From: Mesorhizobium sp. L-8-3
GTDB taxonomy: Bacteria; Pseudomonadota; Alphaproteobacteria; Rhizobiales; Rhizobiaceae
Direction of reading: 5' to 3'
NCBI RefSeq assembly: GCF_016756615.1
Contig: NZ_AP023262.1
Location: 3,473,501-3,537,500, forward strand
Length of the DNA stretch: 64,000 nt
A program made the position numbers and the translations under genes. Positions within the stretch are counted from its first letter, which is position 1. Each line of letters starts with the position of its first letter. Below, piece by piece: positions 4,924-32,300 of this stretch. The notes below the pieces were generated by a model. That model had not been told where the DNA came from, did no database searches, and saw nothing but the letters and a program-made list of their open reading frames with translations.

Positions 4924-5421
4924 TCATGCGTTGGGGAACAAATCCCCCAGGGTGCTGCCGCTCGGTGCCTTATGACCGCTGATGCGGTAAATGCTGCTTG
5001 AACGGAAGACAAGCCTGTCGCCTGCTGTCGCCACCGTCTGCTGGAAAAGCGTCATCTTCGTTGCCCGAAGCAGGGTGGAACTGCTCTCCAGCCAATCGCC
5101 CAATATGGCGGGGGAGATATAGTCGATGGACATGTTGATCGTCGGCATCAGCACATACCGCAAAGAGGGTTCCTGCTGCTGACTGACATAGACCTGCATG
5201 TCGGCAAACGAGGCGAGGACGCCGCCGTGGCAGGTGTCGTGCGGGTTGATATGACGACGGCCGATGCGCATGCCGAGCCGCAGTTTCCCATCCACCAACT
5301 TCCCGTAGATCGGACCAAAGTAGACATTGAATCCCGTCCCGGTCGGCAAGGGTTCGAAGCCCGGCGGGGGATCGTCGGAGATTTCATTCGCCAAGAGTTC
5401 GCCGATATACCGTTCGTTCAT
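4924..5421 (-). CDS. Hot-dog fold acyl-CoA thioesterase (PaaI/YbgC-like)
   Basis: 165 residues from the ATG with GGAAGGA just upstream; an earlier in-frame ATG 30 bp upstream has no such site. The motif RRHINPHDTCHGGVLASFAD near residue 70 is the helix and HGG loop of the hot-dog thioesterase fold, followed by the expected beta-strands (PTINMSIDYISPA). Such enzymes cleave acyl-CoA thioesters to acid and free CoA. The gene is leftward, upstream of the TetR gene and divergent from the operon starting at 5579. In this cluster it could release the pathway product or prevent CoA trapping. The acyl group is not predictable. Confidence 0.8.
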   Translation of the reverse strand: MNERYIGELLANEISDDPPPGFEPLPTGTGFNVYFGPIYGKLVDGKLRLGMRIGRRHINPHDTCHGGVLASFADMQVYVSQQQEPSLRYVLMPTINMSIDYISPAILGDWLESSSTLLRATKMTLFQQTVATAGDRLVFRSSSIYRISGHKAPSGSTLGDLFPNA

Positions 5422-5578
5422 GACCGTTCCTTCCCGCAATGTGGTCGGCATGAAATCGTGATGGCCGCGATCTGTCCAGAAATTAATTCGCTAGATCACT
5501 GTACGCATACGAATATATCTTGACCTTTGCCGACCTGGAAGGCAGATAGGTTGCCACCCGTGCACAGGAGGCTCCGGC

Positions 5579-6538
5579 ATGATCGAGTGGATCAAAAGCG
5601 CCCCCGAACTCACAGATCCGGGCTACAGGCCAAGTGATGATCTCCGCCACCGGCCCGACGAGGGCGGCAAGGCGCGTGACTCGCTCTTCTGGCAGGTCAT
5701 CATGCCGGATCATGAGCTGGGATTTCAGTGCTATCTCTATCTCACCGGCACAGGCAAGGCCGGCTTCAACCTCATCCTGTGGGGCAAGGACAGGAGACCG
5801 TATGTCCTGGAACTGGTGCAGGGCGACGTGCCCGAAACGATGGATTTCGATGATTTCCAACTTGCCGGCCTTCGCGTCCGACAGCCGGCCGACCAGAAGA
5901 CCGCGCACATCTCTTTCGAAAGCGAGAAGGTGAGGCTGGACTACGGTTTCGAAGGCTTCCATGCCCCATTCAGCTATCGTTCCAATCCGGACGGTTTGCC
6001 GTCGTGGTTCGCCGACAACCGCCTGGAGCAGTCCGGCTGGGTGAAGGGTTTCATCGAGTGGGACGGCAGGCGCATCGAACTCGACCGCATCGGTCACCGT
6101 GATCATTCCTGGGGCGTGCGTCACTGGCAGGTGCCCCAGCACTGGAAATGGCTCGTCGCCTACACGCCCGACGCGTCCCGGATCGTCAATGCCTGGATCT
6201 GGATGGCCAAGGGCGAGTGGGGCGTGGGCGGCTATATCGTGCGCGACGGCGAACTGCTGCCGATCGCTTCCGTCAATCAGAAAGCCGTATTCGATGACGA
6301 CATGACCCAGCGCAGCATCGACGTCACGATGACAGACATAAGGGGTGGCATCTGCGAAATGCAGATGGAGCGTTTCGGGCTGGTGAAACTGCCGACCGGC
6401 GGTCGTTACGCGACGATGATCATGGAGGCCGCCTGCCGTGCGACGATCGACGGAAGGCCGGCGGCGGGTCAGTTCGAATGCCAGTGGCCGCAATACTATC
6501 TCGACGCGATGATCGAGTTGAACAAGCAGGCGCCATGA
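5579..6538 (+). CDS. Conserved protein of unknown function, AttH/CrtC-like beta fold (DUF7064/7065-type)
   Basis: 319 residues, no signal peptide. CAGGAGG lies about 8 bp before the ATG. The recognisable feature is IGHRDHSWGVRHWQVPQHWK near residue 180, the conserved H-D-S-W-G-x-R block of lipocalin-like proteins related to AttH and hydroxyneurosporene synthase. Proteins of this kind often sit beside APH-like kinases, crotonases and acyl-CoA dehydrogenases in acyl-CoA degradation clusters, as here. Its stop overlaps the next start by 4 bp (ATGA), so translation is probably coupled to the kinase-like protein. A hydratase or binding role is possible but unproven, and the family name is my recollection rather than a search result. 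Confidence 0.6.
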   Translation: MIEWIKSAPELTDPGYRPSDDLRHRPDEGGKARDSLFWQVIMPDHELGFQCYLYLTGTGKAGFNLILWGKDRRPYVLELVQGDVPETMDFDDFQLAGLRVRQPADQKTAHISFESEKVRLDYGFEGFHAPFSYRSNPDGLPSWFADNRLEQSGWVKGFIEWDGRRIELDRIGHRDHSWGVRHWQVPQHWKWLVAYTPDASRIVNAWIWMAKGEWGVGGYIVRDGELLPIASVNQKAVFDDDMTQRSIDVTMTDIRGGICEMQMERFGLVKLPTGGRYATMIMEAACRATIDGRPAAGQFECQWPQYYLDAMIELNKQAP

Positions 6539-7545
6539 GCTGGAATTGGGATCAGGCGACGCTTGCCGCTCTCGAAGCCTTCCTTGCAGCCAGTGATCTG
6601 CTGGACGGGCCGCCGCAGCCGCGTCGCATCGGGGACGGCCATTCCAATCTCACCTATCTCATTCGGGTGCGCGGCGGCAACGCGGTGCTGCGCCGGCCCC
6701 CGCCTCCACCCGTGCCGAAGGGCGCCAACGACGTGTTGCGCGAGGCGCGTGTGCTGAAGGCGCTCCAGGGGCAGGACGTTCCGGCGCCGCGCGTGCTTGC
6801 TGTCGCGCAGGTCGGCGACGTGCTCGATGTGCCGTTCTATGTCATGGAGCATGTGCCGGGCCATGTCATAACCGACCGGCTGCCGGCGGCGTTCGATGGC
6901 GAGCGCGACGGAAGTGCCATCGCCTTCGGCCTTATCGAAGGGCTGGCGCGCCTGCATGCGGTCGACTGGCGCGCCTGCGGGTTGGAGGATTTCGGCCGAC
7001 CGGCCGACTTCAACGCGCGCCATCTGAACCGGCTGGAAGGGCTGATGAACATGCGTGAGGGCTCCGCTCCCGCATGGCTGGCTGATATGGCCGCGCATCT
7101 CAAGTCGTCCGTGCCTCCGGAAGCGGGCGACGCCATCGTGCACAACGACTTCCGACTCGGCAATGTGATCTGGTCGCCATCCGGCCCGCCGCGGCTCCTA
7201 GCGATCCTCGACTGGGAACTCGCCACGATCGGCGACCCCTTGCTCGATCTCGGCTATACCGTCTGCTGCTATCCGGTGCGCGGCGAACAGATGAACCCGA
7301 CACAGGAGTTGTCCGCAGCGATGCTCGCCACGAGCTTCCCGCCGCGGGAGGAGATCGTGGAACGTTATTGCACGATCACCGGCCGCGACGTCACAAGGCT
7401 CGGCTGGTACGCCGCGATGGCGGCATGGAAACTCGCAGTGCTGTACGATTATCAGCACCGGTTGGGGCGCGACGTATATTATGCCGATGCCACGCAAGGG
7501 CCCCGCTTCATCGCCTCGGCGGAGAAGTTTGCGCGCTATTTCTGA
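6535..7545 (+). CDS. APH-family phosphotransferase (ACAD10/11 kinase-like)
   Basis: 336 residues, starting at the ATG that overlaps the preceding stop. It is a protein-kinase-like fold of the aminoglycoside/choline phosphotransferase type. It shows a nucleotide-loop-like stretch RRIGDGHSNLTYLIR, the catalytic HNDFRLGNVIW motif near residue 205 and the metal-binding LDWELATIGDPLLDLG near 230. In acyl-CoA clusters such proteins are linked to phosphorylation of 4-hydroxyacyl-CoAs before elimination (ACAD10/11), so a hydroxyacyl substrate is more likely than an antibiotic. Its position between the AttH-like gene and a crotonase agrees. The specific substrate is inference. Confidence 0.8.
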   Translation: MSWNWDQATLAALEAFLAASDLLDGPPQPRRIGDGHSNLTYLIRVRGGNAVLRRPPPPPVPKGANDVLREARVLKALQGQDVPAPRVLAVAQVGDVLDVPFYVMEHVPGHVITDRLPAAFDGERDGSAIAFGLIEGLARLHAVDWRACGLEDFGRPADFNARHLNRLEGLMNMREGSAPAWLADMAAHLKSSVPPEAGDAIVHNDFRLGNVIWSPSGPPRLLAILDWELATIGDPLLDLGYTVCCYPVRGEQMNPTQELSAAMLATSFPPREEIVERYCTITGRDVTRLGWYAAMAAWKLAVLYDYQHRLGRDVYYADATQGPRFIASAEKFARYF

Positions 7546-7551
7546 AGGGGA

Positions 7552-8295
7552 ATGGAGGAGATCGTGGACGAAGCGCCCTTGCTCATCGAACTGGCCGACG
7601 GCGTCGCCACGCTTGCGCTCGATCGGCCGGCCGCCCTGAACGCGCTCAATCGTGCCTTGCGCGCGACGCTGGTGGACAGCCTGCTGGAAATGGATGCGCG
7701 CCCCGACATCCGCGCCATCGTCTTGACTGGACGCGGACGGGCGTTCTGTGCGGGGCTCGACGTGAAGGAACTCGGCCAGTCGGGAAACAATGTGACCGAC
7801 AATATCGGGGACCGAGACATCGGCGCGACTGTCACCGCGTTGAAGACACCGATTATTGCCGCGGTCAACGGGCTTGCCGTGACCGGGGGATTCGAGATCG
7901 CCTTGTCGTGCGACATCGTGTTGGCCGCCCGCTCCGCCTGGTTCCAGGACACGCATGCGAAGATCGGCCTCTTGCCCGGCTGGGGCCTTTCGCAGCGCTT
8001 GCCGCGCGTCATCGGCCCCTACAGGGCCAAGGAGATCTCGCTCAGCGCGCGCAAGGTAACGGCGGATGAGGCGGCGCAACTCGGCTTCGTATCGCGTGTG
8101 GTGTCCGATGACGAACTGCCGGGCGAGGCGCGCGCCGTGGCCATGGCGATTGCCCAGTGGCCGGCGGAGCATGTCGCGCGCATCAAGTCCCTCATCGACC
8201 GGGGATATGCGATGCCCTTCGGCGAGGCCTTGCGGTTCGAGGCGGAGGAAGCGCGTAAGCGGAACGCCAAGGTGACGCTGCCGGCTCGGGCGTGA
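7552..8295 (+). CDS. Enoyl-CoA hydratase/isomerase family protein (crotonase)
   Basis: 247 residues if begun at the ATG at 7552. A GTG at 7564 has a better spaced GGAGGAG and may be the true start. Crotonase motifs are the oxyanion-hole [16 protein letters not shown] near residue 60 and [20 protein letters not shown] near 105. The first catalytic glutamate (GGFE) is present. The second, normally in a PEIxLG segment, is replaced in [15 protein letters not shown], so simple hydratase chemistry may be altered. It lies 6 bp after the kinase-like gene and before etfB, within one apparent operon. Hydratase, isomerase or lyase activity cannot be distinguished. Confidence 0.85.
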
Positions 8296-8350
8296 TGTCC
8301 TCGCACCTTCGTGTCGGCGGTGCGCCGGAGTGAAAACGGGAGATATGGTC

Positions 8351-9100
8351 ATGAAAGTTCTGGTGCCCGTGAAGCGGGTGGTCGACTACAACGTGAAGAT
8401 CCGGGTGAAGTCGGACGGCTCGGGCGTCGAGCTGGCCAATGTGAAGATGTCGATGAACCCGTTCGACGAGATCGCGGTCGAGGAGGCGATCCGGCTGAAG
8501 GAGGCCGGCAAGGTCGAGGAGATCGTGGTGGTGTCGATCGGCCCGGCGCAGGCGCAGGAGACGCTCAGGACGGCGCTGGCGATGGGCGCCGACCGGGCGA
8601 TCCTGGTCAAGGTCGACGAGGCGGTCGAGCCGCTGGGCGTGGCCAAGGTGCTGAAGGGCGTGGTCGAGGCCGAGACGCCTGAACTGGTGATCCTCGGCAA
8701 GCAGGCGATCGACGACGACGCCAACCAGACCGGCCAGATGCTGGCGGCCCTTCTGGGCTGGGCGCAGGGCACCTTCGCCTCCAAGGTCGAGATAGCGGGC
8801 GATCATGCAACGGTGACGCGCGAGGTCGACGGCGGCCTGCAGACGGTCGACCTGAAGCTGCCGGCGATCGTGACGACGGACCTCAGGCTGAACCAGCCGC
8901 GTTATGCCTCTTTGCCCAACATCATGAAGGCCAAGAAGAAGCCGCTCGACGAGAAGAGCCCGGCCGATTTCGGCGCCGACGTGAAGCCCAGGCTGAAGGT
9001 GTTGAAGACCGAGGAGCCGGGTGGCCGCAAGGCGGGCGTCAAGGTCAAGACGGTGGCCGAGCTGGTCGACAAGCTCAAGAACGAAGCCGGCGTGCTCTGA
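8351..9100 (+). CDS. etfB: Electron transfer flavoprotein subunit beta
   Basis: 249 residues, the usual length, from the ATG preceded by GGGAGA at 8337-8342. The N-terminus [20 protein letters not shown], the [19 protein letters not shown] block and the [20 protein letters not shown] region are classic group I EtfB. EtfB with EtfA carries FAD and AMP and passes electrons from acyl-CoA dehydrogenases to ETF:quinone oxidoreductase at the membrane. It would reoxidise a dehydrogenase of the preceding acyl-CoA genes, although no such dehydrogenase is in the window. It is separated from etfA by about 620 bp occupied by a repeat element, unusual for a pair normally nearly adjacent. Confidence 0.95.
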
Positions 9101-9106
9101 GGGCTC

Positions 9107-9684
9107 GGTGCGTCCTTCGAGGCTCGCCCTGCGAAGGACGCACCTTTCCTGCAACGGGCTGCGGGCTCGCACCTCAGGATGAGGACCGTGAGCGCCGAGG
9201 GCCAGCCGGGAATGCCGGCAAGGCACCGAGGGTCCTCATCCTGAGGAGCAAGGGCGCCGAGGGCCAGCCGGGAATGCCGGCAAGGCACCGAGGGTCCTCA
9301 TCCTGAGGAGCAAGGGCGCCGAGGGCCAGCCGGGAATGCCGGCAAGGCACCGAGGGTCCTCATCCTGAGGAGCAAGGGCGCCGAGGGCCAGCCGGGAATG
9401 CCGGCAAGGCACCGAGGGTCCTCATCCTGAGGAGCAAAGGCGCCGAGGGCCAGCCGAGAATGCCGGCAAGGCACCGAGGGTCCTCATCCTGAGGAGCAAG
9501 GGCGCCGAGGGCCAGCCGGGAATGCCGGCAAGGCACCGAGGGTCCTCATTGTGAGGAGCGAGGGCGCCGAGGGTTAGCCGGGAATGCCGGCAAGGCACCG
9601 AGGGTCCTCATCCTGAGGAGCGAGCCCGGCAGGAGCTGGACGATTGGACAATTCCCTTGGCGGGCGAGCCTCGAAGGACGCACC
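9107..9684. repeat. 62-bp tandem repeat array bounded by a perfect 23-bp inverted repeat
   Basis: A 62-bp unit beginning ACCGAGGGTCCTCATCC recurs head to tail with exact spacing at 9225, 9287, 9349, 9411, 9473, 9535 and 9597; the last copy and one before 9225 are partial. Each unit contains the palindrome CCTCATCCTGAGG and a GCCGGGAATGCCGGC arm. The array is enclosed by a 23-bp sequence at 9107-9129 whose exact reverse complement lies at 9662-9684. The left arm also folds locally (9107-9119 with 9132-9144, 13 bp), a possible terminator or RNA-processing hairpin after etfB. No credible gene lies inside. Related palindromic intergenic repeats are common in Rhizobiales. Confidence 0.9.
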
Positions 9685-9726
9685 CAAGGCAGCAGGCGCT
9701 AAGGCGCGCCAGAGAAGGAAACGGAA

Positions 9727-10656
9727 ATGGCTATTCTTCTGATTGCCGAACACGACAACGCCACCCTGTCGGACCAGACCGCCAAGGCGCTGACGGCCGC
9801 GACCAGGATCGGCGCGGACGTGCATGTGCTGGTGGCCGGCAAGGGCGCCAAGGCAGCCGCCGATGCCGCCGCCAGGCTGACGGGCGTGTCGAAGGTGCTT
9901 CTGGCCGAGGCGGCCGAGCTCGAGCAGCGGCTGGCCGAGCCGCTGGCCGCGCTGGTGGTTTCGCTGGCCGGCGCCTACGACACGATCATGGCGCCGGCGA
10001 CCTCGTCGGGCAAGAACGTCGCCCCGCGCATCGCCGCGCTGCTCGACGTCGCCCAGGTGTCGGAGATCATCGAGGTTGTTTCATCCGACACCTTCAAGCG
10101 TCCGATCTATGCCGGCAACGCCATCCAGACGGTGCAGACGACGGAGCCCAAGCGGGTGATCACCGTGCGCACGGCCTCGTTCCAGGCCGCGCCCGACGGC
10201 GGCTCGGCCGCGGTCGAGACGGCCAATGCGGCGACCGATCCCGGCCTGTCGAGCTTCGTCGAGAACAGGCTGTCGGAGAGCGATCGTCCGGAGCTGACCT
10301 CGGCCCGGATCATCATCTCGGGCGGCCGCGCGCTGGGCTCGTCGGAGAAGTTCCAGGAGGTCATCCTGCCGGTCGCCGACAAGCTGGGCGCCGCGGTCGG
10401 CGCTTCCCGCGCCGCGGTCGACGCCGGCTATGCGCCGAACGATTGGCAGGTCGGCCAGACCGGCAAGGTGGTGGCGCCGGAACTCTACATCGCGGTCGGC
10501 ATTTCCGGCGCGATCCAGCATCTGGCCGGCATGAAGGACAGCAAGGTCATCGTCGCCATCAACAAGGACGAGGAAGCGCCGATCTTCCAGGTGGCCGACT
10601 ACGGCATCGTCGGCGACCTCTTCACCATCCTGCCCGAGCTCCAAAAGGCGCTTTGA
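9727..10656 (+). CDS. etfA: Electron transfer flavoprotein subunit alpha
   Basis: 309 residues, standard length, starting ATGGCTATTCTTCTGATTGC with GAAGGAAACGG upstream. The C-terminal FAD domain is evident: [19 protein letters not shown] near residue 195, then [40 protein letters not shown] and the final [15 protein letters not shown]. It forms the heterodimer with EtfB and delivers electrons from acyl-CoA or related dehydrogenases to the quinone pool. The repeat array upstream may hold or separate transcription signals for this gene. Nothing in the sequence suggests it is inactive. Confidence 0.95.
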
Positions 10657-10933
10657 CCGTCAGCAATCGCCAGGAGAACAGTCCTGCAACGCTCCGCGTG
10701 AAGAAGGTTCTGCGGAGACATGTGCTGAGCCAAGTGGCGGGGAACCTGCGTCGGCACGCCCCTGGCGGCGAGCCCGGCTGGCGAACTGTGGCAGGCTCAG
10801 GTTCGCCACTACCGAGCGGATCGTCGCCAGACCGAGCGGCGGGTGTTGCAAGGTGGCAGTCTCCGGGCTAGCTCAGTTCCAACGATGGGGAGCGCTGCGA
10901 GCCGCAGCGTTTCCCGATGAGCCCTCGTCGTAC

Positions 10934-11695
10934 CTACCCAGATACCAGTTTGCCGAACGCCACCGCGCGTCGGTGAATCTCAGGCGCGTCGTAGTCCAGG
11001 GTCGCGACATGGAAACTCTTGTCGAGCGTCGCGTATTCGACGGTGCCGCCCAGCCTTGCCCTCAGCAGTTCGACCGAACCCGGCGGGATGACGTGGTCCT
11101 GCTGGCTATGCAAGATGAGGGCCGGTGACTTGATGCGCGAAAGTCCGGCTTCGTTTGCTTTCACGCCATCGAGGAGCGACAGAAGGCATTGCGCGGGTGT
11201 CTTGTCGTAACCGAGTTCCTTCGAGCTGGGGTCAGCTATATCGCCTGCGATCGCAGGCAGAAACCGCTCGCCCGCGGCTAGCGTCGCTTTCGCGCCCTCG
11301 GCGAAGGGGCCGAAGTCGTCTGCCTTGACCGCCGGATTGATGAGGACGATGCCCTTGATCTCCGGGTGCTGCTGGGCGAGCCAGAGAGTCAGCGATCCGC
11401 CCATCGATAGTCCGGCGACGACCACAGAGTCGGCTCGCGCCGCCAGGTCACGATAGGCCGCGTCGGCGGCGGCGGTCCATGCACCCCACCCGGTCCTGTT
11501 CATATCCTCAGGCGTCGTGCCGTGGCCCGGCAACCGGGGGACCTCCACCGTGAACCCGGCATCCGCGAAGGCCTTACCCAGCGGCCGCATAGACTGCGGG
11601 CAACCTGTAAATCCGTGGATCACCAACGCACCGTGCCGGCCACCCTTCGCAGAGTACGGCTCCGCACCCGCCATGATCCCAGGTTCAATTCCCAT
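10934..11695 (-). CDS. Alpha/beta-hydrolase, carboxylesterase / monoacylglycerol lipase-like
   Basis: 253 residues from the ATG preceded by GGAGGAACCGAC. Oxyanion region ALVIHGFTGCPQSMRPLG, nucleophile elbow VVAGLSMGGSLT (Ser about residue 98), acid LHSQQDHVIPPGS (Asp about 200) and histidine DKSFHVATLDYD (about 230) give a complete triad. Length and order match Est30-type carboxylesterases and thermophilic monoglyceride lipases acting on short acyl esters in the cytoplasm. It faces leftward, convergent with etfA. The 277 bp between them contain only an 8-bp inverted repeat (10779-10786 with 10801-10808) and no gene. The natural substrate is unknown. Confidence 0.85.
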   Translation of the reverse strand: MGIEPGIMAGAEPYSAKGGRHGALVIHGFTGCPQSMRPLGKAFADAGFTVEVPRLPGHGTTPEDMNRTGWGAWTAAADAAYRDLAARADSVVVAGLSMGGSLTLWLAQQHPEIKGIVLINPAVKADDFGPFAEGAKATLAAGERFLPAIAGDIADPSSKELGYDKTPAQCLLSLLDGVKANEAGLSRIKSPALILHSQQDHVIPPGSVELLRARLGGTVEYATLDKSFHVATLDYDAPEIHRRAVAFGKLVSG

Positions 11696-11836
11696 GTCGG
11701 TTCCTCCGTTCCAAGATCACGCGGCACCGAAGCATCGCAACGGCAATCCGTATAGTAGCGTATCGTATGCAAGCAAGAAAGAAAGAAGGATCGACCACTC
11801 ACGCACGCGAAACTCACTGGGAGATTTCGCGCTTCC

Positions 11837-12080
11837 TCAAGCGCGAGCGTACGACGCAATAGCGAGATCCTCTTCCCGGAACGCCGCAAGTGGCGGACCT
11901 TTCGGCGTCTGCCCGGATTGAAACCTGGCCCGGTAGCCTCGCGGCGGCTTGGAAATCTGAAGACGGGCACATAGCTTGGCGATTGCGACATCCGAAAACG
12001 CCAAGTTCCTTGGCCACCTCCTGCGTCGGCTTCCCCCAAACCAGCGCGAACAGTTCCTCGCGCGAGAGCTCTTTTGACGA
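11837..12080 (-). pseudogene. Frameshifted helix-turn-helix protein fragment
   Basis: Read leftward, the first part encodes ELSREELFALVWGKPTQEVA followed by KELG. One base later, in the next frame, it continues SDVAIAKLCARLQISKPPRG followed by YRARFQSGQTPKG. A single extra T in the GTTTTCGG run near 12000 explains the switch. The two halves match the N-terminal HTH-like segment (LYxLVW, LAKxxGxSDVxLAKxCxR, PPRGYWA) of a conserved bacterial family of unknown function. No start codon or C-terminal part is recognisable, so this is a decayed fragment. The remaining 11.7-12.5 kb shows no intact gene. Confidence 0.65.
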
Positions 12081-12113
12081 TCGTGTCCCACCAAGTGGTG
12101 TAGCTCGTCGTAG

Positions 12114-12170
12114 GCGAAGCCGCTCGCTCGCGCGCCCCTCAATAGCGCTGTAGCGAGCGAGCGGCTTCGC
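12114..12170. repeat. Perfect 18-bp inverted repeat (hairpin)
   Basis: 12114-12131 (GCGAAGCCGCTCGCTCGC) is the exact reverse complement of 12153-12170, with a 21-bp loop. It lies between the HTH remnant and the transposase remnant. There is no T-run on either side, so it is not a standard intrinsic terminator. It may be a repeat-element end. Confidence 0.8.
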
Positions 12171-12237
12171 GGGCGATCATCGATGTTTCCCGGTAGGGTC
12201 GGGTTGCTGAGTCCAACCGGATTCGAAGGAACGATCG

Positions 12238-12282
12238 ATGACCGACGACATGATGAACTTCCGCACGCTGGTGGAGAAGAGC
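12238..12282 (+). pseudogene. IS256-family transposase, N-terminal remnant
   Basis: From the ATG at 12238 the translation begins MTDDMMNFRTLVEKS, the characteristic opening of many IS256-family (Mutator-like) transposases in Rhizobiales. It then runs into unrelated sequence and a stop. No catalytic DDE segment follows, so only about 15 codons survive next to a deletion or recombination junction. The short length limits certainty. Confidence 0.5.
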
Positions 12283-12523
12283 TGCGCTGGGGCACGCAAA
12301 GCACGATCAGTGCGGCGACAGGAGCAGCCTCCGAGATCGTGCGGGTGACCGACGATGTCCACTATCGTGAGACGGGCACGGACCAGGCCGTCGAAAACGT
12401 TCCTGCGGTTGACCGCGAACCACGTTTAAGAGCCTCTATCTCCGCTGCGATCGGGCAAAAATGAACCCCATGACGACTGTTGCGGACGTGCAGCGCGCTG
12501 ATCCCGCGCAGTTGGAACCACCG

Positions 12524-12697
12524 CTACGATGCGTACTGTGTCGCGATCTTCATCTGGAGGTCTTCATCTGCAGTGCGGAAGTCGACCTTGCCTACTCCGT
12601 CGCACGTTTGACAGGTGGTTGTTCTGTCTTTGGTCGGCCGTATCTTCCCGGCGCCTTTGCAAACCGGGCAGACGGCTAACAAGGGGCTGACCTCCAT
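12524..12697 (-). CDS. Small zinc-ribbon protein with DnaJ-type CxxCxGxG motifs
   Basis: 57 residues from the second ATG, preceded by GAGAGGAG; a start 39 bp upstream is also open. Two DnaJ-like zinc motifs are present: CPVCKGAGKI and CQTCDGVGKV, separated by 14 residues, enough to bind one Zn. Free-standing mini-DnaJ zinc fingers like this occur in rhizobial accessory regions, with no established role beyond likely protein or nucleic-acid binding. It lies alone between the IS256 remnant and the broken endolysin. Confidence 0.6.
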   Translation of the reverse strand: MEVSPLLAVCPVCKGAGKIRPTKDRTTTCQTCDGVGKVDFRTADEDLQMKIATQYAS

Positions 12698-12823
12698 TTC
12701 ATCTCCTCTCTCAGAATCCCTCCTGGTCACCGGCATCTTTCATCGAACCTGGAGTTGTTGCAACCGCTGATAGTCGCGGTCGCGTTCTGGCTCGGCATCT
12801 TCGCAACTCAAAGGAACAACCAC

Positions 12824-13330
12824 ATGACAACGACGCTGGATGTCCAGCGCGCGCTGCTTGCGCGCGGCTATGATCTCGGGCCGAGCGGGGCGGACGGAAT
12901 TCCTGGCCCGCCGCACGACCGCCGCGGTGCGGCAGTTCCAGGCGGATCGGGGCCATGCGGTCAAATGGCCCGGCACTGTCGGGCCGGATCACGCTTTCGG
13001 CGCTCGGGGTTTTCGGGCGATGCTGCGCCGGAACTGGGCGTGCCGGCCGGCGAGGTCGTCCCGCCGTGGATCGCGATTGCGCGCGCCAAGATCGGCCAGC
13101 ACGAAAAGATCTACAACAAGAAGCTGCGCGACTGGCTCAAGAGCGACGGACACGCGCTCGGCGATCCGGCGAAGCTGCCGTGGTGTGGCGATTTTTGTTG
13201 AGACGTGCCTGGCGCTGGCGCTGCCCGGCAATCCCTACTGGGCGCGCTCAACTGGCGCCAGTTCGGGCAGGGCGTATGTCCATTCGGGCCTCGGCATTGC
13301 CGCTATGCTCCCAACAGTACCAGACAACCG
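12824..13330 (+). pseudogene. Phage-type endolysin (peptidoglycan-binding plus C-terminal hydrolase), multiply frameshifted
   Basis: Starting at the ATG at 12824, pieces of one protein appear in alternating frames: TLDVQRALLARGYDLGPSGA and, in another frame, TTAAVRQFQADRGHAVKWPG (peptidoglycan-binding repeat); then PPWIAIARAKIGQHEKIYNK and KLPWCGDF in the first frame, then VETCLALALPGNPYWAR after a further shift. This order matches TIGR02594-type phage lysozymes or amidases with an N-terminal PG-binding domain. At least three frame changes show that the gene is dead. It marks an old prophage in the 12-14 kb scrap region. Confidence 0.7.
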
Positions 13331-13439
13331 TTCGTCCGACAGTCCGCATTACGCCCGGGCTCGGGCTCGGGCTCGGGAAATTGGCGATCACGCGATGGCC
13401 GATGAAGCGCTTGAAATCGGTCGTGGTGTGTCACTATCA

Positions 13440-13745
13440 GCAGTAACCGCGCAAGCAGGTTCCGAACGCTCGACACCTGCCCAGCGTCCGCCTCGTCCAG
13501 TTCTGACGCCGCGGTTGTTCAAAGCAGCTGCAATCCCTCTGAGGCTGGCTACGCCATAGCGCTGGATTGTCTGCACGATCGGCAGGACGGATTCAGCAAA
13601 GCGCTCTGCTTCGCGAATAGAGACCTCGCGCCCCTTCGCGGCGGCTAGGATGTGTTGCGCGGGGTTGCCGAGCCTCGTCCCACCCTGCTTGTGCGATGCG
13701 AGGGCGGCCCTGGTCCGCTCGGAGATGAACCGCCTTTCTCGGCCA
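13440..13745 (-). pseudogene. Serine recombinase (resolvase/invertase), C-terminal remnant
   Basis: Leftward translation gives [40 protein letters not shown] and [17 protein letters not shown], closely matching the C-terminal half of the intact recombinase at 44444-45124. The catalytic N-terminal domain with its serine is missing. A frameshift after GGRW disrupts the last residues (the alternate frame reads [11 protein letters not shown]). It is a truncated paralogue, probably left by a former mobile element. Confidence 0.75.
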
Positions 13746-13808
13746 GTGCTGCGTTCTCAGCGGTGGTCACCGTGGCGAGAGTGTGCCAATGGCTGAGCCG
13801 GAGCAGGG

Positions 13809-14291
13809 TCATTCGCCCCAAATGACGAAAGCGATCAGGAAGGCGATGGTGCCGTACCAGACGATCGTGCCGAGCGCCTTCGTCAGCGTCCGCCTGGCCT
13901 CGCGGGCTCGATTCGGGTTGACTGGGTCGTAGATGACCGCAACCTCGGCGCCGACCGTCGCGGTCGTACTGTTCACTGCAAGGCCCGAATGGAACCGCTG
14001 CCGCTTGCCGGCCCGATCGGTGAACTCAATTACGGGCGTATCAGGACCGTCGCCCGAAGTGTCGAGCCTCACGACCTTGCGCGTTGTGTAGGCGCGTCGC
14101 CGCATTAGGACGAGGTCGCCATAGGTCTCCGGAACGACCAGTGCGCCAAGGAAAACGACGCAGATCAGGCACCAGATCTGGATGTCGCTCGGAGCGTAAC
14201 CGGATTGGTCGGCAAGGGCGCGGAACGGCCAGAGCGCCTCATGCGCCCAGTCACCGACACGCATCCAGAATGCTTCCCACTGCTCCCGCAT
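13809..14291 (-). CDS. DUF3592-type membrane protein
   Basis: 160 residues from the ATG at MREQWEAFWMRV. The frame is open further upstream, but that part is Arg/Pro/Ser-rich and looks non-coding. Predicted membrane segments are IQIWCLICVVFLGALVV (about residues 35-52) and the C-terminal TIVWYGTIAFLIAFVIWG. Between them is a beta-rich domain with VIEFTDRAGKRQRFHSGLAV and AEVAVIYDPVNPNRAR, the typical DUF3592 pattern of small two-TM proteins of unknown function. No strong ribosome-binding site is visible. Confidence 0.65.
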   Translation of the reverse strand: MREQWEAFWMRVGDWAHEALWPFRALADQSGYAPSDIQIWCLICVVFLGALVVPETYGDLVLMRRRAYTTRKVVRLDTSGDGPDTPVIEFTDRAGKRQRFHSGLAVNSTTATVGAEVAVIYDPVNPNRAREARRTLTKALGTIVWYGTIAFLIAFVIWGE

Positions 14292-14370
14292 CGCCCAGCC
14301 CGTATCCGCGGATCGGCGGAACGATAGCCGGCAATGGCGACAAAACGGTAAAAGCGGATCGAAATGACCT

Positions 14371-15366
14371 TTAGCCCGAAGTTTGCGAGTTAGGCGCGGT
14401 GCCGGTCTTCCTGAGGACCGGCTCGCCGTGAAAGCGCCTGGCCGATGGACGCGAGACGCCATAGGCGATTTCCATCATCAGCCGCGGGTTTTTCCTGGGC
14501 ACCGAGCCCATGTGGAATCCGAACGGGTCTTCCACGAAACCGGTTCCTGCCTTACCAGTCATCGTGACCCGGTTCTCTGCGCCATAAATGCGGAGCACCT
14601 CGTCGACCGGGTGCCCGACCAGAAGCGTGTACTGGTGCTTCAGGGCGCGCTTGCGGTGGCTTCCAAACACATAGACATGGGCGCCGTCCTCCTCTCCGAC
14701 ATCCGAAATGTAGAAGAAGAACTTCAGCATGCGCCAATCATCGAGGTCGAAGTGGAGATTCAGGGACGTGAGATGGAGATCGGCCACGGTGACGTTCTTG
14801 GTCGGGAATGTCCACCAGATCCTGGTTGTCGCGAGAGTCGCCTGACCGCCGAGATATCGCTGGGCGATTCCGAGCAGCAGCGGGTCTTGCTGAACAGCTC
14901 GAACAGCCGCGCACCCCATCGATCTTCCAAAGAAATGGCCGCTGAGAATGGAGCGGCCGAACTGCTTCTCGGCGACCTGGTGTTCCGGGGCCAGGAACTC
15001 CAGCTGCCGGTCGAAATTGGCGAAACAGGGCGTAGATCTGGCGAAGCCGGCAATCTCCTCATGAACGGCAGGAGGCAAGTTCAAGCCCCGGCAAAACCCG
15101 TCGGTGCGCAAGGCGGCCGCCGCATCCGATGCGGTTACGGCATCGCCGAAGAGCGACGACCCGGCACCCGAACCGGCCGGGACGCGCCTCGCCGTCATCC
15201 AATGCGCCCTTCGAAAGGGCATCGTGCGCGCGAGCAGGAACATCGGCAGCCACGCCGGGTTCTCGCGAATATCGGATACATAGGTCGGAATTCTCGCCGC
15301 GATCCGCCGAAGAACTCTAACTGTCCGCTGGGATCGATTGGCAGCGGGCATCAACTGCTCGGACAT
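14371..15366 (-). CDS. Phytanoyl-CoA dioxygenase (PhyH)-like Fe(II)/2-oxoglutarate oxygenase
   Basis: 331 residues. The jelly-roll iron site is recognisable: LNLHFDLDDWRMLKFFFYIS near residue 215 supplies the H-x-D pair, EDGAHVYVFGSH follows, and DPFGFHMGSVPRKNPRLMME near 300 gives the distal histidine and the arginine for 2-oxoglutarate. PhyH-like enzymes hydroxylate acyl chains or secondary metabolites; similar bacterial proteins also occur beside glycan or nucleotide-sugar genes. No pathway partners are adjacent (DUF3592 gene downstream, small unknown genes upstream), so the substrate is open. Some members of the family are inactive, but the ligands here look complete. Confidence 0.75.
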   Translation of the reverse strand: MSEQLMPAANRSQRTVRVLRRIAARIPTYVSDIRENPAWLPMFLLARTMPFRRAHWMTARRVPAGSGAGSSLFGDAVTASDAAAALRTDGFCRGLNLPPAVHEEIAGFARSTPCFANFDRQLEFLAPEHQVAEKQFGRSILSGHFFGRSMGCAAVRAVQQDPLLLGIAQRYLGGQATLATTRIWWTFPTKNVTVADLHLTSLNLHFDLDDWRMLKFFFYISDVGEEDGAHVYVFGSHRKRALKHQYTLLVGHPVDEVLRIYGAENRVTMTGKAGTGFVEDPFGFHMGSVPRKNPRLMMEIAYGVSRPSARRFHGEPVLRKTGTAPNSQTSG

Positions 15367-15570
15367 GCATTCTTCCTTGCTTGTGTCGGGTTGTTACCTG
15401 TGCCCTGCCGCCCACAGCAGAAACCAAAGGTACCGATTTTTTTGCAATGCACAATAGGCCCGCCGATCCTGCTTGCCGGGGGCTTGGGCGCCCTTCCGGG
15501 GGCTCTGTAACGCCGGACGCTCGAGTTCCTCGAACTCGTCCTGTCGCCGCTCTGCGGGCTGCTCGGGGCG

Positions 15571-15744
15571 ATGTGCCTGACGAAGCCAGTCGTGCTCTTG
15601 GTCCGGTACTATGGATGGCCCCCGGTCGCTTCGGACGATTCCGCCGCTTTCGCCGCGGCGTTCGTCGTCGGGACGTGCTCCATGTGGCTGTCCGACTGGA
15701 TCTTCGAGTTCATCGTCCGGAAGCAGCGACCGCCCCCGGCATAA
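15571..15744 (+). CDS. Small hydrophobic protein, hypothetical
   Basis: 57 codons from the ATG at 15571, stop TAA at 15742-15744, with strong G/C third-position bias. The translation contains LTKPVVLLVRYYGW and AAAFVVGTCSMWLSDWIFEF, suggestive of one or two membrane-interacting helices and a basic tail. The frame is open back to a stop at 15508, without a better start. No family is recognised. It occupies an otherwise geneless 15367-15927 interval. Confidence 0.35.
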   Translation: MCLTKPVVLLVRYYGWPPVASDDSAAFAAAFVVGTCSMWLSDWIFEFIVRKQRPPPA

Positions 15745-15927
15745 TCGTCCGGAGTTTCCGGACACTCTCGACCGATGGCTGCCCCGCTGGCGCCAGCCGG
15801 CGGGCTTTCTGAGTTCTGAAACGTAGAACGGAAGCTATCTCGGCACCAGGCACGGGCTGGCACCTAATTCCTGGCCAGATGGCGTCGCGCACGATAGTCT
15901 TGGATCCGCAAAATCAGGACCGCGACA

Positions 15928-16197
15928 ATGCTCGATCTAGGTGAAGTTCTCGATCCGTTTCGAAAAAAGGTAATCGACATCAAGGACGCGCTTGCGGGCG
16001 CCCGCTATCTCTATGACGGTATCGACCTGATCTTGGAGAGCGTCGATGACCCCAAGGTTCGTGGAGCTTCGCAAGAGGTGTTCTCGTCTGCCAGCGAAAA
16101 GATGAACGCGATCGACGGTATGCTTGACGAATTCTATCGTCAATTGTCTTCGACGGATCGGGTGTTGGAGACGTACAAGGCCAACCTGAAACCCTGA
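15928..16197 (+). CDS. Small helical protein, hypothetical
   Basis: 89 residues with CAGGAC 8 bp before the ATG. It is mostly amphipathic helix, for example KKVIDIKDALAGARYLYDGI and KMNAIDGMLDEFYRQLSSTD, without cysteines, signal peptide or membrane segment. No family is recognised. Its stop codon TGA lies inside the 5-bp direct repeat flanking the IS5-family element, so the insertion separated the gene from the hairpin at 17434-17455 (its likely original terminator) while leaving the coding sequence intact. Confidence 0.55.
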   Translation: MLDLGEVLDPFRKKVIDIKDALAGARYLYDGIDLILESVDDPKVRGASQEVFSSASEKMNAIDGMLDEFYRQLSSTDRVLETYKANLKP

Positions 16198-29396: not shown

Positions 29397-32300
29397 CTAC
29401 TGCAAGTTCGCCTGATCGACTGGCATCGGCGGACGATCGCCGCAGATTGGCGGTAGCTTGTCGAGGCCATAGCGTCTTTGGACGTCGGAGAGACCGGTGT
29501 CGTTGCCGAGCCATGCGCACGCGACCTGAAACGCGTCGCCTGTCGGGAGGGCGGTGTCCCACACCCGCGCGGTACTGTCAGACGATGCGGTGAGGACGCG
29601 CGTGCCGTCCGGCGAGAAGACGGCGATGTTGACGGGACCCATGTGTCCACTCAACGCCGCGAGCTGGGCGCCGGTGGCGGTATCCCAGATGCGCGCGGTG
29701 TGGTCGTAGGATGAGGTTGCGATGCGTGTCCCGTCTGGCGAGAAGACGGCCGATTTAATTATGTCTGTGTGTCCGATCAGCATCGTGAGCTGGTCGCCGG
29801 TGCCGACGTCCCAGACCACGGCCGTGGAGTTAGCGAACGCGGGCATAACGATCCACGTTTCGTTGGGGGAAAAGGCGGCTGAGGTGACGTTGTACTCAAA
29901 CCCCTCCAGCAGCACGAGCTGGGCGCCGGTGGTGGCATCCCAGACGCGTGCGGTCTCGTCGTTGGAAGCAGTGATGATGCGCGTTCCTGCAGGCGAAAAG
30001 GCAGCGGACGAGACGCTGCTCTCATGGCCCTTGAGCAGCGCGACCTGGTCACCAGTAACAGCTTCCCAGACCCGCGCGGTTTTGTCGTCGGAGGCTGTGA
30101 CGATGCGGCTGCCGTCCAGGGAGAAGGCTGCAGACGCAACCGTATCCTCATGGCCCTTGAGCAGCGCCACTTGGTCACCAGTGATAGCATCCCAGACTCG
30201 CGCGGTCCTGTCATTGGATGCGGTGACGACGCGCGTGCCGTCCGGGGAGAAGGCAGCAGACGAGACCCTGTCCTCATGGCCCTTGAGCAGCGCCACCTGG
30301 TCACCAGTGACAGCATCCCAGACCCGCGCGGTTTTGTCATCGGAGGCTGTGACGATGCGCCTGCCGTCCGGGGAGAAGGCAGCAGACGAGATCCAGTCGT
30401 CGTGACCTTTCAACGCCGCGAGCTGGACGCCAGTGGCGGTCTCCAACACCCACGCGCCGTTATCTGTTGACGCAGTAGTGACGATGCGTGCGCCGTCCGG
30501 CGAAAAGGCAGCGGACCAGCCCCCGCTATCGTGCACGGTCAGCTGGGTGCCGGTGGCAGCATCCCAAACTCTTGCCGTTTCGTCGCCGGACACGGTGATG
30601 ATGCGCTTGCCGTCCGGCGAGAACGCGGCCGAACGTACGATATTCTGATGCCCCTTCATTAGCGCGAGCTGGGTGCCGGTGGCACTATCCCAGACGCGTC
30701 CGGTGTTGTCCCACGACGCGGTGATGATGCGCTTGCCGTCCGGCGAGAACGCTGCCGAACGGAGGGCTTTTTTATGCCCCTTCATTAACGCGAGCTGGGC
30801 GCCGGTGGCAGCATTCCAGACCCGTGCGGTGTCGTCCCACGATCCGGTGACGACGCGCGTGCCGTTCGGGGAGAAGGCAGCGGACGAGACGCTGCTCTCA
30901 TGGCCCTTGAGCAGCGCAACCTGGTCACCAGTAACAGCATCCCAGACCCGCGCGGTTTTGTCATCGGCTGCGGTGACGATGCGCCTCCCGTCGGGGGAGA
31001 AGGCTGCGGACCAGACCGTATCCGCATGACCCTTGAGCAGAGCCAGTTGTTCACCAGTGACAGCATCCCAGACCCGCGCGGTTTTGTCATCGGCTGCGGT
31101 GACGATGCGGCTGCCGTCCGAGGAGAACGCTGCCGAACGGACGTAACCCTCATGCCCTTTCATCACCGCGAGCTGTGCACCGGTTGCGGCATCCCAGACC
31201 CGAGGGGTTTTGTCATCGGCTGCGGTGACGACGCGCCTCCCGTCCGGGGAGAAAGCAGCGGACAAGACCCTGTCCTCATGGCCCTTGAGCAGCGCCACTT
31301 GGTCACCAGTGATAGCATCCCAGACTCGCGCGGTCCTGTCATTGGATGCGGTGACGACGCGCGTGCCGTCCGGGGAGAAGGCAGCAGACGAGACCCTGTC
31401 CTCATGGCCCTTGAGCAGCATTAACTGCTCGCCGGTAGCGGCATCCCAGACCCGCGCCGTATGATCAGATGAGGCGGTGAGGATGCGACTGCCGTCTGCT
31501 GAGAACATACCGGATCCAACTGACCCCTTGTGGCCACGGAGAAGCAAACTTTGGCCGAAATCCTGAAACGCCAGATCTAGGCTATTGATCGTGCGCAGGA
31601 GAGCTGGCCGCCCCTCGTCACCGCGGCGCGGCCACGCGGCAAGGGCCAACTTAATCGCCGCCACAGGCGATCCTTCCGATTCGGCAACATGCGACAGGGC
31701 GGCGAGGCTGATCGTTTCGTTCAGCTTCGCTTTCGTGGCCTTTGCTTCTGCTTCTGCTTTCTGTCGGTCGGCCTCCCCCCGCTGGCGGTTCGCTTCCTCT
31801 GCTGCGGCCACGGCATCCACTCGAGCGTCCTCCGCCAGATTAGCCTGCCAGTATCCATAGACCGCCCCCAAGACGGCAAGGAAAGCCGCAATGCTCACTG
31901 CGACCAGCTCCCGTCGTGTGACGCGTGCCCGATGACGAGCCTCATCGGCCTGTTTCCGCTGCGCATCAGCACGCCAACTCGCCTCTATCGCTAGTTTTTT
32001 CTGTATCTCTGCCACTCTCTGCTGCTCGGCTGCACGCTGGCTCTCTGCCTCGGCCCGCCGCTTTTGCTCCTCGGCCAGCGCCTTCAGCGCGTCGACCTTT
32101 TTCCGCTGCTCTTCTGCTGCGACGCGCCGCGCCTCTTCGTCAGCCTTGATGCTGGCCTCGATGAAGGCACGATCTGAGGTCGGGATGTCCTCCCCGTCTA
32201 TTTCAAGAAAACTCCTTGCTCGTTCCAAAGGCCTGCCGGTCAGGAGGGCGGAGCTTACCTTGCCTTGGTGCTCCCAATCCTTCCGATCGTTCTCGTTAAG

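Follow-up and report, generated by a model that had tools for sequence, protein, structure and literature searches.

In Mesorhizobium sp. L-8-3, the genes etfB (8351-9100, + strand) and etfA (9727-10656, + strand) are separated by 626 bp, in which a tandem array lies enclosed by an inverted repeat; what this element is, how it acquired its array, and which enzyme might move it are the questions that the locus raises. Coordinates are those of the window, the whole stretch of 64,000 nucleotides that was analysed (NZ_AP023262.1, positions 3,473,501 to 3,537,500), unless stated otherwise. The products of the two genes match the EtfB and EtfA families, but under the curated cut-offs of those models, and an enoyl-CoA hydratase gene lies on the + strand, as do etfB and etfA.

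The whole element, one of a family termed X below, occupies 9107-9684 (578 bp): its 23-bp end is followed by an inner motif, then by the seven units of 62 bp, and is closed by the inverted copy of the end. The left terminal 23 bp, GGTGCGTCCTTCGAGGCTCGCCC (9107-9129, + strand), are the exact complement of the right terminal 23 bp (9662-9684, - strand), and begin a hairpin with a 13-bp perfect stem, read from the sequence at 9107-9144 (folding of 9107-9143 gave z -4.7). The left inner motif, GCACCTCAGGATGAGGAC, was located by motif search at 9169-9186 (+ strand). Tandem Repeats Finder (TRF) delimited the core array at 9192-9621 (period 62, 6.9 copies, 97% matches, no indels), and a listing of its units at 9192-9625 (+ strand) gave seven, varying at a handful of positions. 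Each unit contains one inner motif in the orientation opposite to the left one, so that the right inner motif (9604-9621, - strand), within the last unit, is inverted relative to it; a second inverted pair (9162-9196 and 9594-9628, 86%) is nested within the 23-bp pair. Thus, both the seven-fold array of exact 62-bp period and the perfect inverted ends described in the original prediction were recovered, but its claim that each unit is palindromic was not: the unit as a whole is no palindrome, and folds singly as two small hairpins (z -1.9). A 21-bp part of the end, at up to three mismatches, matches only the two ends of the element in the window, and nothing in 100 shuffles; matches to the inner motif and the unit core are likewise far above shuffled levels. 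Downstream of the element, AGAAGGA (9713-9719, + strand), which reads as the likely Shine-Dalgarno sequence of etfA, was spared by the insertion. Elsewhere in the window, at 29935-31496, we noted a long 126/378-bp tandem repeat (approximately 70-75% matches) that is possibly a coding repeat protein.

We identified further copies of X across the genome of the same strain (8.45 Mb in one contig). The 20-bp end matches 37 sites at up to three mismatches (reversed control, two), and the inner motif matches 36 sites at up to two mismatches (control, none), of which seven lie within the etf element. Many of these sites are inverted pairs of ends around site-specific cores, and a few are single ends. 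X is therefore dispersed, multi-copy and composed of short palindromes that are often in inverted pairs, as are REP/BIME (REPIN) elements, and the etf feature is a member of this REP/BIME-like family, with hairpin ends TCCTTCGAG...CTCAGGATGAGG inverted around a variable core. In the apical hairpins, facing positions pair in 58% of cases, versus 43% with shuffled 3' halves (maximum 49% in 500), for the 49 of 60 distinct X sequences whose lengths have at least three members and without control for relatedness, which suggests a hairpin that is conserved while its stem sequence changes. Seven of the 15 other X intervals carry tandem repeats (TRF threshold 30; periods 18, 29, 78 and 163/187 bp), indicating that an array inside an inverted repeat is common for X. 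At one of them (L096, G000:C1 2059159-2059804) a second long array, of 7.1 copies of 78 bp, lies within X ends, and at another (L102, G000:C1 7787933-7788670) ends and cores are themselves in tandem with periods of 163 and 187 bp.

We compared the spacing of etfB and etfA across relatives. No more than 38 bp separate the two genes at 93 of 111 loci, own copies included (the distant ETF homologue L112 having been left out of 112 rows), supporting the earlier view of the element as a REP-like insertion into a normally contiguous operon; the gap exceeds 100 bp in 13. By eye, the long gaps contain X twice in the own genome and at L113 and L204. A different palindromic element, GATGAGGCCG...CTCACGTAC, fills the gap at L116, L124, L197, L207, L217 and L320, and in genome G025 occupies only one of two etfBA copies; the gap at L138 contains a CGTC repeat by the test described below, and the long gaps at L119, L129 and L158 were not classed. 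At least three kinds of palindromic element, separated partly by eye, are thus present in this gap in different genomes, and the etfA ribosome-binding region appears intact by eye at the X-bearing loci. The original prediction was to be judged by such spacing and by copy number: the gap proved mostly short in relatives, and the unit number differs, as the X in relative G033 (L204) is similarly laid out within the gap and has no array.

The own genome encodes EtfB twice with 100% identity, alongside one distant homologue. At the second locus (G000:C1 2561388-2562131, minus strand), etfB and etfA flank a 206-bp X with one 62-bp unit, i.e., 578 minus 6 x 62 bp. The open reading frames of the two copies differ at one base (10593), and the homology starts at the etfB ATG and stops one base beyond the stop codon of etfA. 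Since a near-identical etfB-X-etfA segment has one unit, the array reflects a difference in the number of core units, which probably arose by expansion. The X without array in G033 favours growth of the window copy; a contraction of the other copy is a less probable alternative, raised by the array units having more substitutions than the etf reading frames. The seven units, each comprising the core with one inner motif, most likely arose by slippage or through unequal recombination. The gene following etfA at the second locus, which we take to encode a 3-hydroxyacyl-CoA dehydrogenase, has a match in 68 of 92 relatives' loci and none in window region 5001-16000, which makes the second locus the probable native copy. 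Several genomes contain etfBA in multiple copies (window 8351-10657 and L097; L316-L326), with homology that begins near the etfB start and ends near the etfA end, to within some 20 bp, at 83-99.6% identity; no homology beyond etfBA was found in the own genome and five other selected multi-copy genomes. The pattern resembles concerted evolution driven by gene conversion.

The original prediction had regarded array and ends as one element, MITE-like or REP-like. The ends occur elsewhere in the genome without this array, an outcome that it had itself named as counting against the idea, and the paralogous etf copy has a single unit, so array and ends are not one transposed unit; we accordingly rejected a single element with a built-in array. 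MITEs resemble X in being small and apparently non-coding, with terminal inverted repeats, but differ in that the X end is itself a hairpin and the core length is free; no adjacent direct repeat of at least 4 bp flanks any of 15 X pairs, six of which share a right end with another pair, and for want of a target duplication this candidate was rejected also. The REP-like half of the prediction fared better, given the 37 end sites and their many inverted pairs, but X has no GTAG on its conserved end or inner motif on either strand, and no adjacent RAYT in the own genome. That genome contains three partial matches to PF01797 (Y1_Tnp), two of them above cut-off; no X end (up to four mismatches) was found in the approximately 3-kb loci around them, although one contains an inner-motif match with four mismatches, and RAYTs were rejected as movers of X in this genome.

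We identified a different candidate enzyme within an X cluster of the own genome (L099, G000:C1:4435220-4436104), where a small gene lies between X pairs. Its product matches the GIY-YIG domain (PF01541, 55.5 bits; best sequence match among solved structures, 1zg2), and X-type GIY-YIG proteins in general are about 100 amino acids long. Among the four PF01541 matches of this genome, a second small gene (L222) has copies of another palindrome on both sides; the remaining two loci, one of them UvrC-like by length, have no shared flanking repeat. Following the L099 lead, we selected further GIY-YIG loci by protein similarity alone, and searched for a repeat of at least 36 bits common to the 600 bp on either side of the gene. 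Such a repeat was present at 23 of 34 loci (the four own and the best 30 from 151 genomes of the family), and at 0/316 random sites (79 named loci) and 1/28 ParE genes of the same sample (two of 30 ParE loci were dropped as short). Later GIY-YIG sets gave 19/30, 12/20, 10/31 and 12/16, the negative loci numbering 11/34 in the first set (including UvrC and one locus with no right flank) and 11/30, 8/20, 21/31 and 4/16 in the others.

The X motif itself was fixed from the own genome before the loci of relatives were tested. Among the 30 proteins listed as closest to that of L099 in 297 genomes of its order (one of the 30 is the own gene), it occurs within 600 bp of the gene for 27, and on both sides for 19. 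The three X-type loci with no X (L282, L284 and L285) are among the weakest protein matches. Beside other GIY-YIG genes, X was found at 3/31 (each one-sided) and at 0/20 in a further set selected from weaker matches in 14 genomes, each of them with the X pattern, i.e., at 3/51. Controls gave 1/28 for ParE, 3/28 for EtfB and 15/395 for random sites, none both-sided.

We additionally identified a reciprocal association of the other GIY-YIG genes with CGTC REPs, which are described as carrying a CGTC tag and 8-9 bp stems beginning with AT, often as inverted dimers, in the 2013 survey (PMC3733652). Our test was adapted from that published definition and loosened to admit loops of 3-25 bases and one stem mismatch. 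CGTC REPs occur beside 25/31 (10 both-sided) and 11/20 (6 both-sided) of the other GIY-YIG genes, or 36/51, and beside 2/30 and 2/30 of X-type genes, or 4/60, none both-sided; controls gave 1/28 (ParE), 0/28 (EtfB) and 13/395 (random). The Fisher values for this double dissociation of X and CGTC repeats (6e-15 and 8e-13) overstate its strength, because related sequences are not independent. We relied on the published definition rather than on a 27-bp pattern, Z, that had been derived from the loci on which it was counted.

A tree was built from 73 GIY-YIG sequences, eight of the 81 loci having been set aside for stops or an odd length. On few alignment columns, a long branch supported at 98/100 separates 46 of the 48 other GIY-YIG sequences from the X-type sequences; L226 and L228 stand apart from both groups, and the forks among the X-type sequences, on the far side of the branch, are only partly resolved. 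The presence of X requires four changes on this tree, versus a mean of 19.8 when shuffled (0/500 as low); clustering of the in-sample Z label is only slight (12 changes versus 14.8; 12/500 as low). Adjacency of GIY-YIG gene and repeat type is group-specific. At the level of whole genomes, the X pattern is present in 22 of 24 with a strong X-type hit, versus 38 of 273 others, at a strong-hit cut that we set ourselves (24/28 versus 36/269 on adding G393, G430, G176 and G312), and 38 of the 60 X-bearing genomes have no strong X-type hit. Mean X copy number is higher in genomes with the gene in 8 of 11 families, with the same trend in family f20 (p 0.007); in three of the 12 (f16, f34 and f35) genomes with the gene do not have more copies, and eight genomes of f35 that lack it carry 14-84 copies.

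The closest parallel is to REP/BIME/REPIN elements and their RAYT partners (TnpA-REP, REPtron). Both systems consist of short extragenic palindromes that are dispersed as inverted pairs and cluster around a single enzyme gene, both include tandem clusters, and in both each enzyme type has a repeat type of its own (PMC3116915, PMC6006769); RAYT genes in Pseudomonas adjoin clusters of their own REPINs (PMC3116915). X differs from a REPtron in that its partner gene encodes a GIY-YIG nuclease and not a tyrosine transposase, its ends lack GTAG, and no end lies near the three partial RAYT-like matches of its genome. Type-specific adjacency, as expected of a REPtron-like unit of nuclease and repeat, is present in the order tested and weaker in other orders. 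CGTC-tagged REPs (Di Nocera et al. 2013, PMC3733652) share with X their presence in Alphaproteobacteria and their frequent inverted dimers, but the X palindrome is a different one (TCCTTCGAG...CTCAGGATGAGG), and no CGTC repeat (tag plus 8-9 bp stem starting with AT) was found in any of 16 own-genome X intervals. RIME, Sm-repeats and Br-REP1/2 are also intergenic palindromes of Rhizobiales (PMC2573895, PMC5082802), RIME being likened to X by description; the Br-REP1 consensus was found in the repeat flanking the GIY-YIG gene at L328.

In the 2013 survey, CGTC REPs "apparently lack a dedicated transposase": they were found to flank no gene for a tyrosine transposase and to have few, fortuitous links with other transposase genes, and the text does not contain 'GIY' (PMC3733652). 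Because no tyrosine transposase gene was reported beside CGTC REPs, and because the repeats cluster around GIY-YIG genes as REPINs do around RAYTs, we propose GIY-YIG nucleases as the partners of these repeats. We consider it rather probable that the etf feature is a REP/BIME-like X with an expanded core, and that X and CGTC REPs are each paired with their own GIY-YIG group, which likely mobilises them. The anatomy of X, its dispersal, the paralogue with one unit and the group-specific adjacency were observed directly; recognition, cutting and mobilisation of the repeats by these nucleases are what we infer from the adjacency. Each nuclease would recognise the palindrome of its own family, perhaps folded into a hairpin or cruciform, and cut there, and repair would then excise, copy or insert the repeat, much as RAYTs are thought to act on GTAG REPs. 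The GIY-YIG domain is not known to have strand-transfer activity, so insertion would need host repair. More tentatively, small stand-alone GIY-YIG nucleases may be the dedicated mobilising enzymes of CGTC REPs and of the X family. Palindromic repeats are widespread in alphaproteobacterial genomes, and these nucleases, if so, would give REPs a second enzymatic means of spreading, in addition to RAYTs. With one small, expressible candidate enzyme and a matching repeat for each group, the question of the missing transposase can be approached by binding, cleavage and deletion experiments. No paper pairing GIY-YIG with repeats was among the literature matches listed, and one may exist elsewhere; among the matches listed for X and related repeat sequences, none concerned bacterial repeats by title.

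The main rival to mobilisation by the nuclease, which we regard as unlikely but to be taken seriously, is that the GIY-YIG genes are parasites of the homing type that exploit palindrome clusters already in place, cutting the repeat and inserting beside it but not spreading it. This predicts type-specific adjacency equally well, accommodates the 38 X-bearing genomes with no strong X-type hit, and could attribute the higher copy numbers to more frequent invasion of repeat-rich genomes. Read base by base, however, the genes at L099 and L386 lie between whole inverted pairs and not within a single split element, and the excess of X copies in genomes with the gene, in f20 (p 0.007) and 8 of 11 other families, also argues against it.

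The modulation of EtfA and EtfB expression raised in the original prediction is possible, but it is less probable still that X between etfB and etfA acts as a regulator, forming a long hairpin in the mRNA and, through its copy number, setting the stability of the etfB message and the level of etfA expression. The 578-nt element as RNA folds much better than shuffles (z -10.9), the insertion kept the ribosome-binding region of etfA, and the recurrence of different palindromic elements in this gap is also compatible with a function there. Good folding is natural to palindromes, however, the gap is short (up to 38 bp) at 93 of the 111 loci, and we found no terminator- or sigma-70-like sites in 9000-9800; a search of Rfam with 8300-10700 matched no RNA family at E up to 1. 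X probably plays a passive part in the operon or gives the mRNA mild stability, and the natural pair of one versus seven units in near-identical operons of one genome suits tests of the effect of the repeat. Least probable is that the array is a plain minisatellite inside an inert repeat, and that GIY-YIG genes and repeats only accumulate at the same permissive intergenic sites, since, common as tandem growth is in X and known as tandem REP clusters are from Pseudomonas (PMC3116915), this explains neither the double dissociation (X 27/30 versus 3/51; CGTC 36/51 versus 4/60) nor the ParE and random controls.

Returning to pairing of each repeat with its own nuclease, we investigated how far it extends. 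Relatives of the L222 protein from a plasmid collection (16 named loci hand-picked for diversity among 37 records) share a flanking repeat in 12/16 cases and have CGTC REPs in 9/16, six both-sided. Named examples of the CGTC type include Azospirillum lipoferum, where the GIY-YIG gene and its repeats lie between sufB and sufC, pSymB of Sinorhizobium meliloti, and Shinella. Repeats also flank the gene at one locus each in Neisseria (CGTC type), Aeromonas and Planktothrix, which hints at a reach beyond Alphaproteobacteria; such repeats are very abundant in Neisseria gonorrhoeae, so that flanking there is likelier to arise by chance. On the Planktothrix plasmid (L391), repeats of the TGTCATTCTGAGTGAAACGAAGAATC type flank a GIY-YIG gene whose neighbours are a type IIL restriction gene and drmA. 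The association of X with X-type genes weakens in other orders of the class: X is present at 17 of 28 X-type loci, six both-sided, and a shared flanking repeat at 10 of 31. X lies on both sides of the gene at two Methylobacterium plasmid loci and is absent from one Sphingomonas locus. At L365 and L366, X-type genes of other orders are flanked by CCTTCGACAAGCTCAGGATGA-like or CCCTTCGAC...CTCAGGGCGAGG repeats, which are possibly cousins of X.
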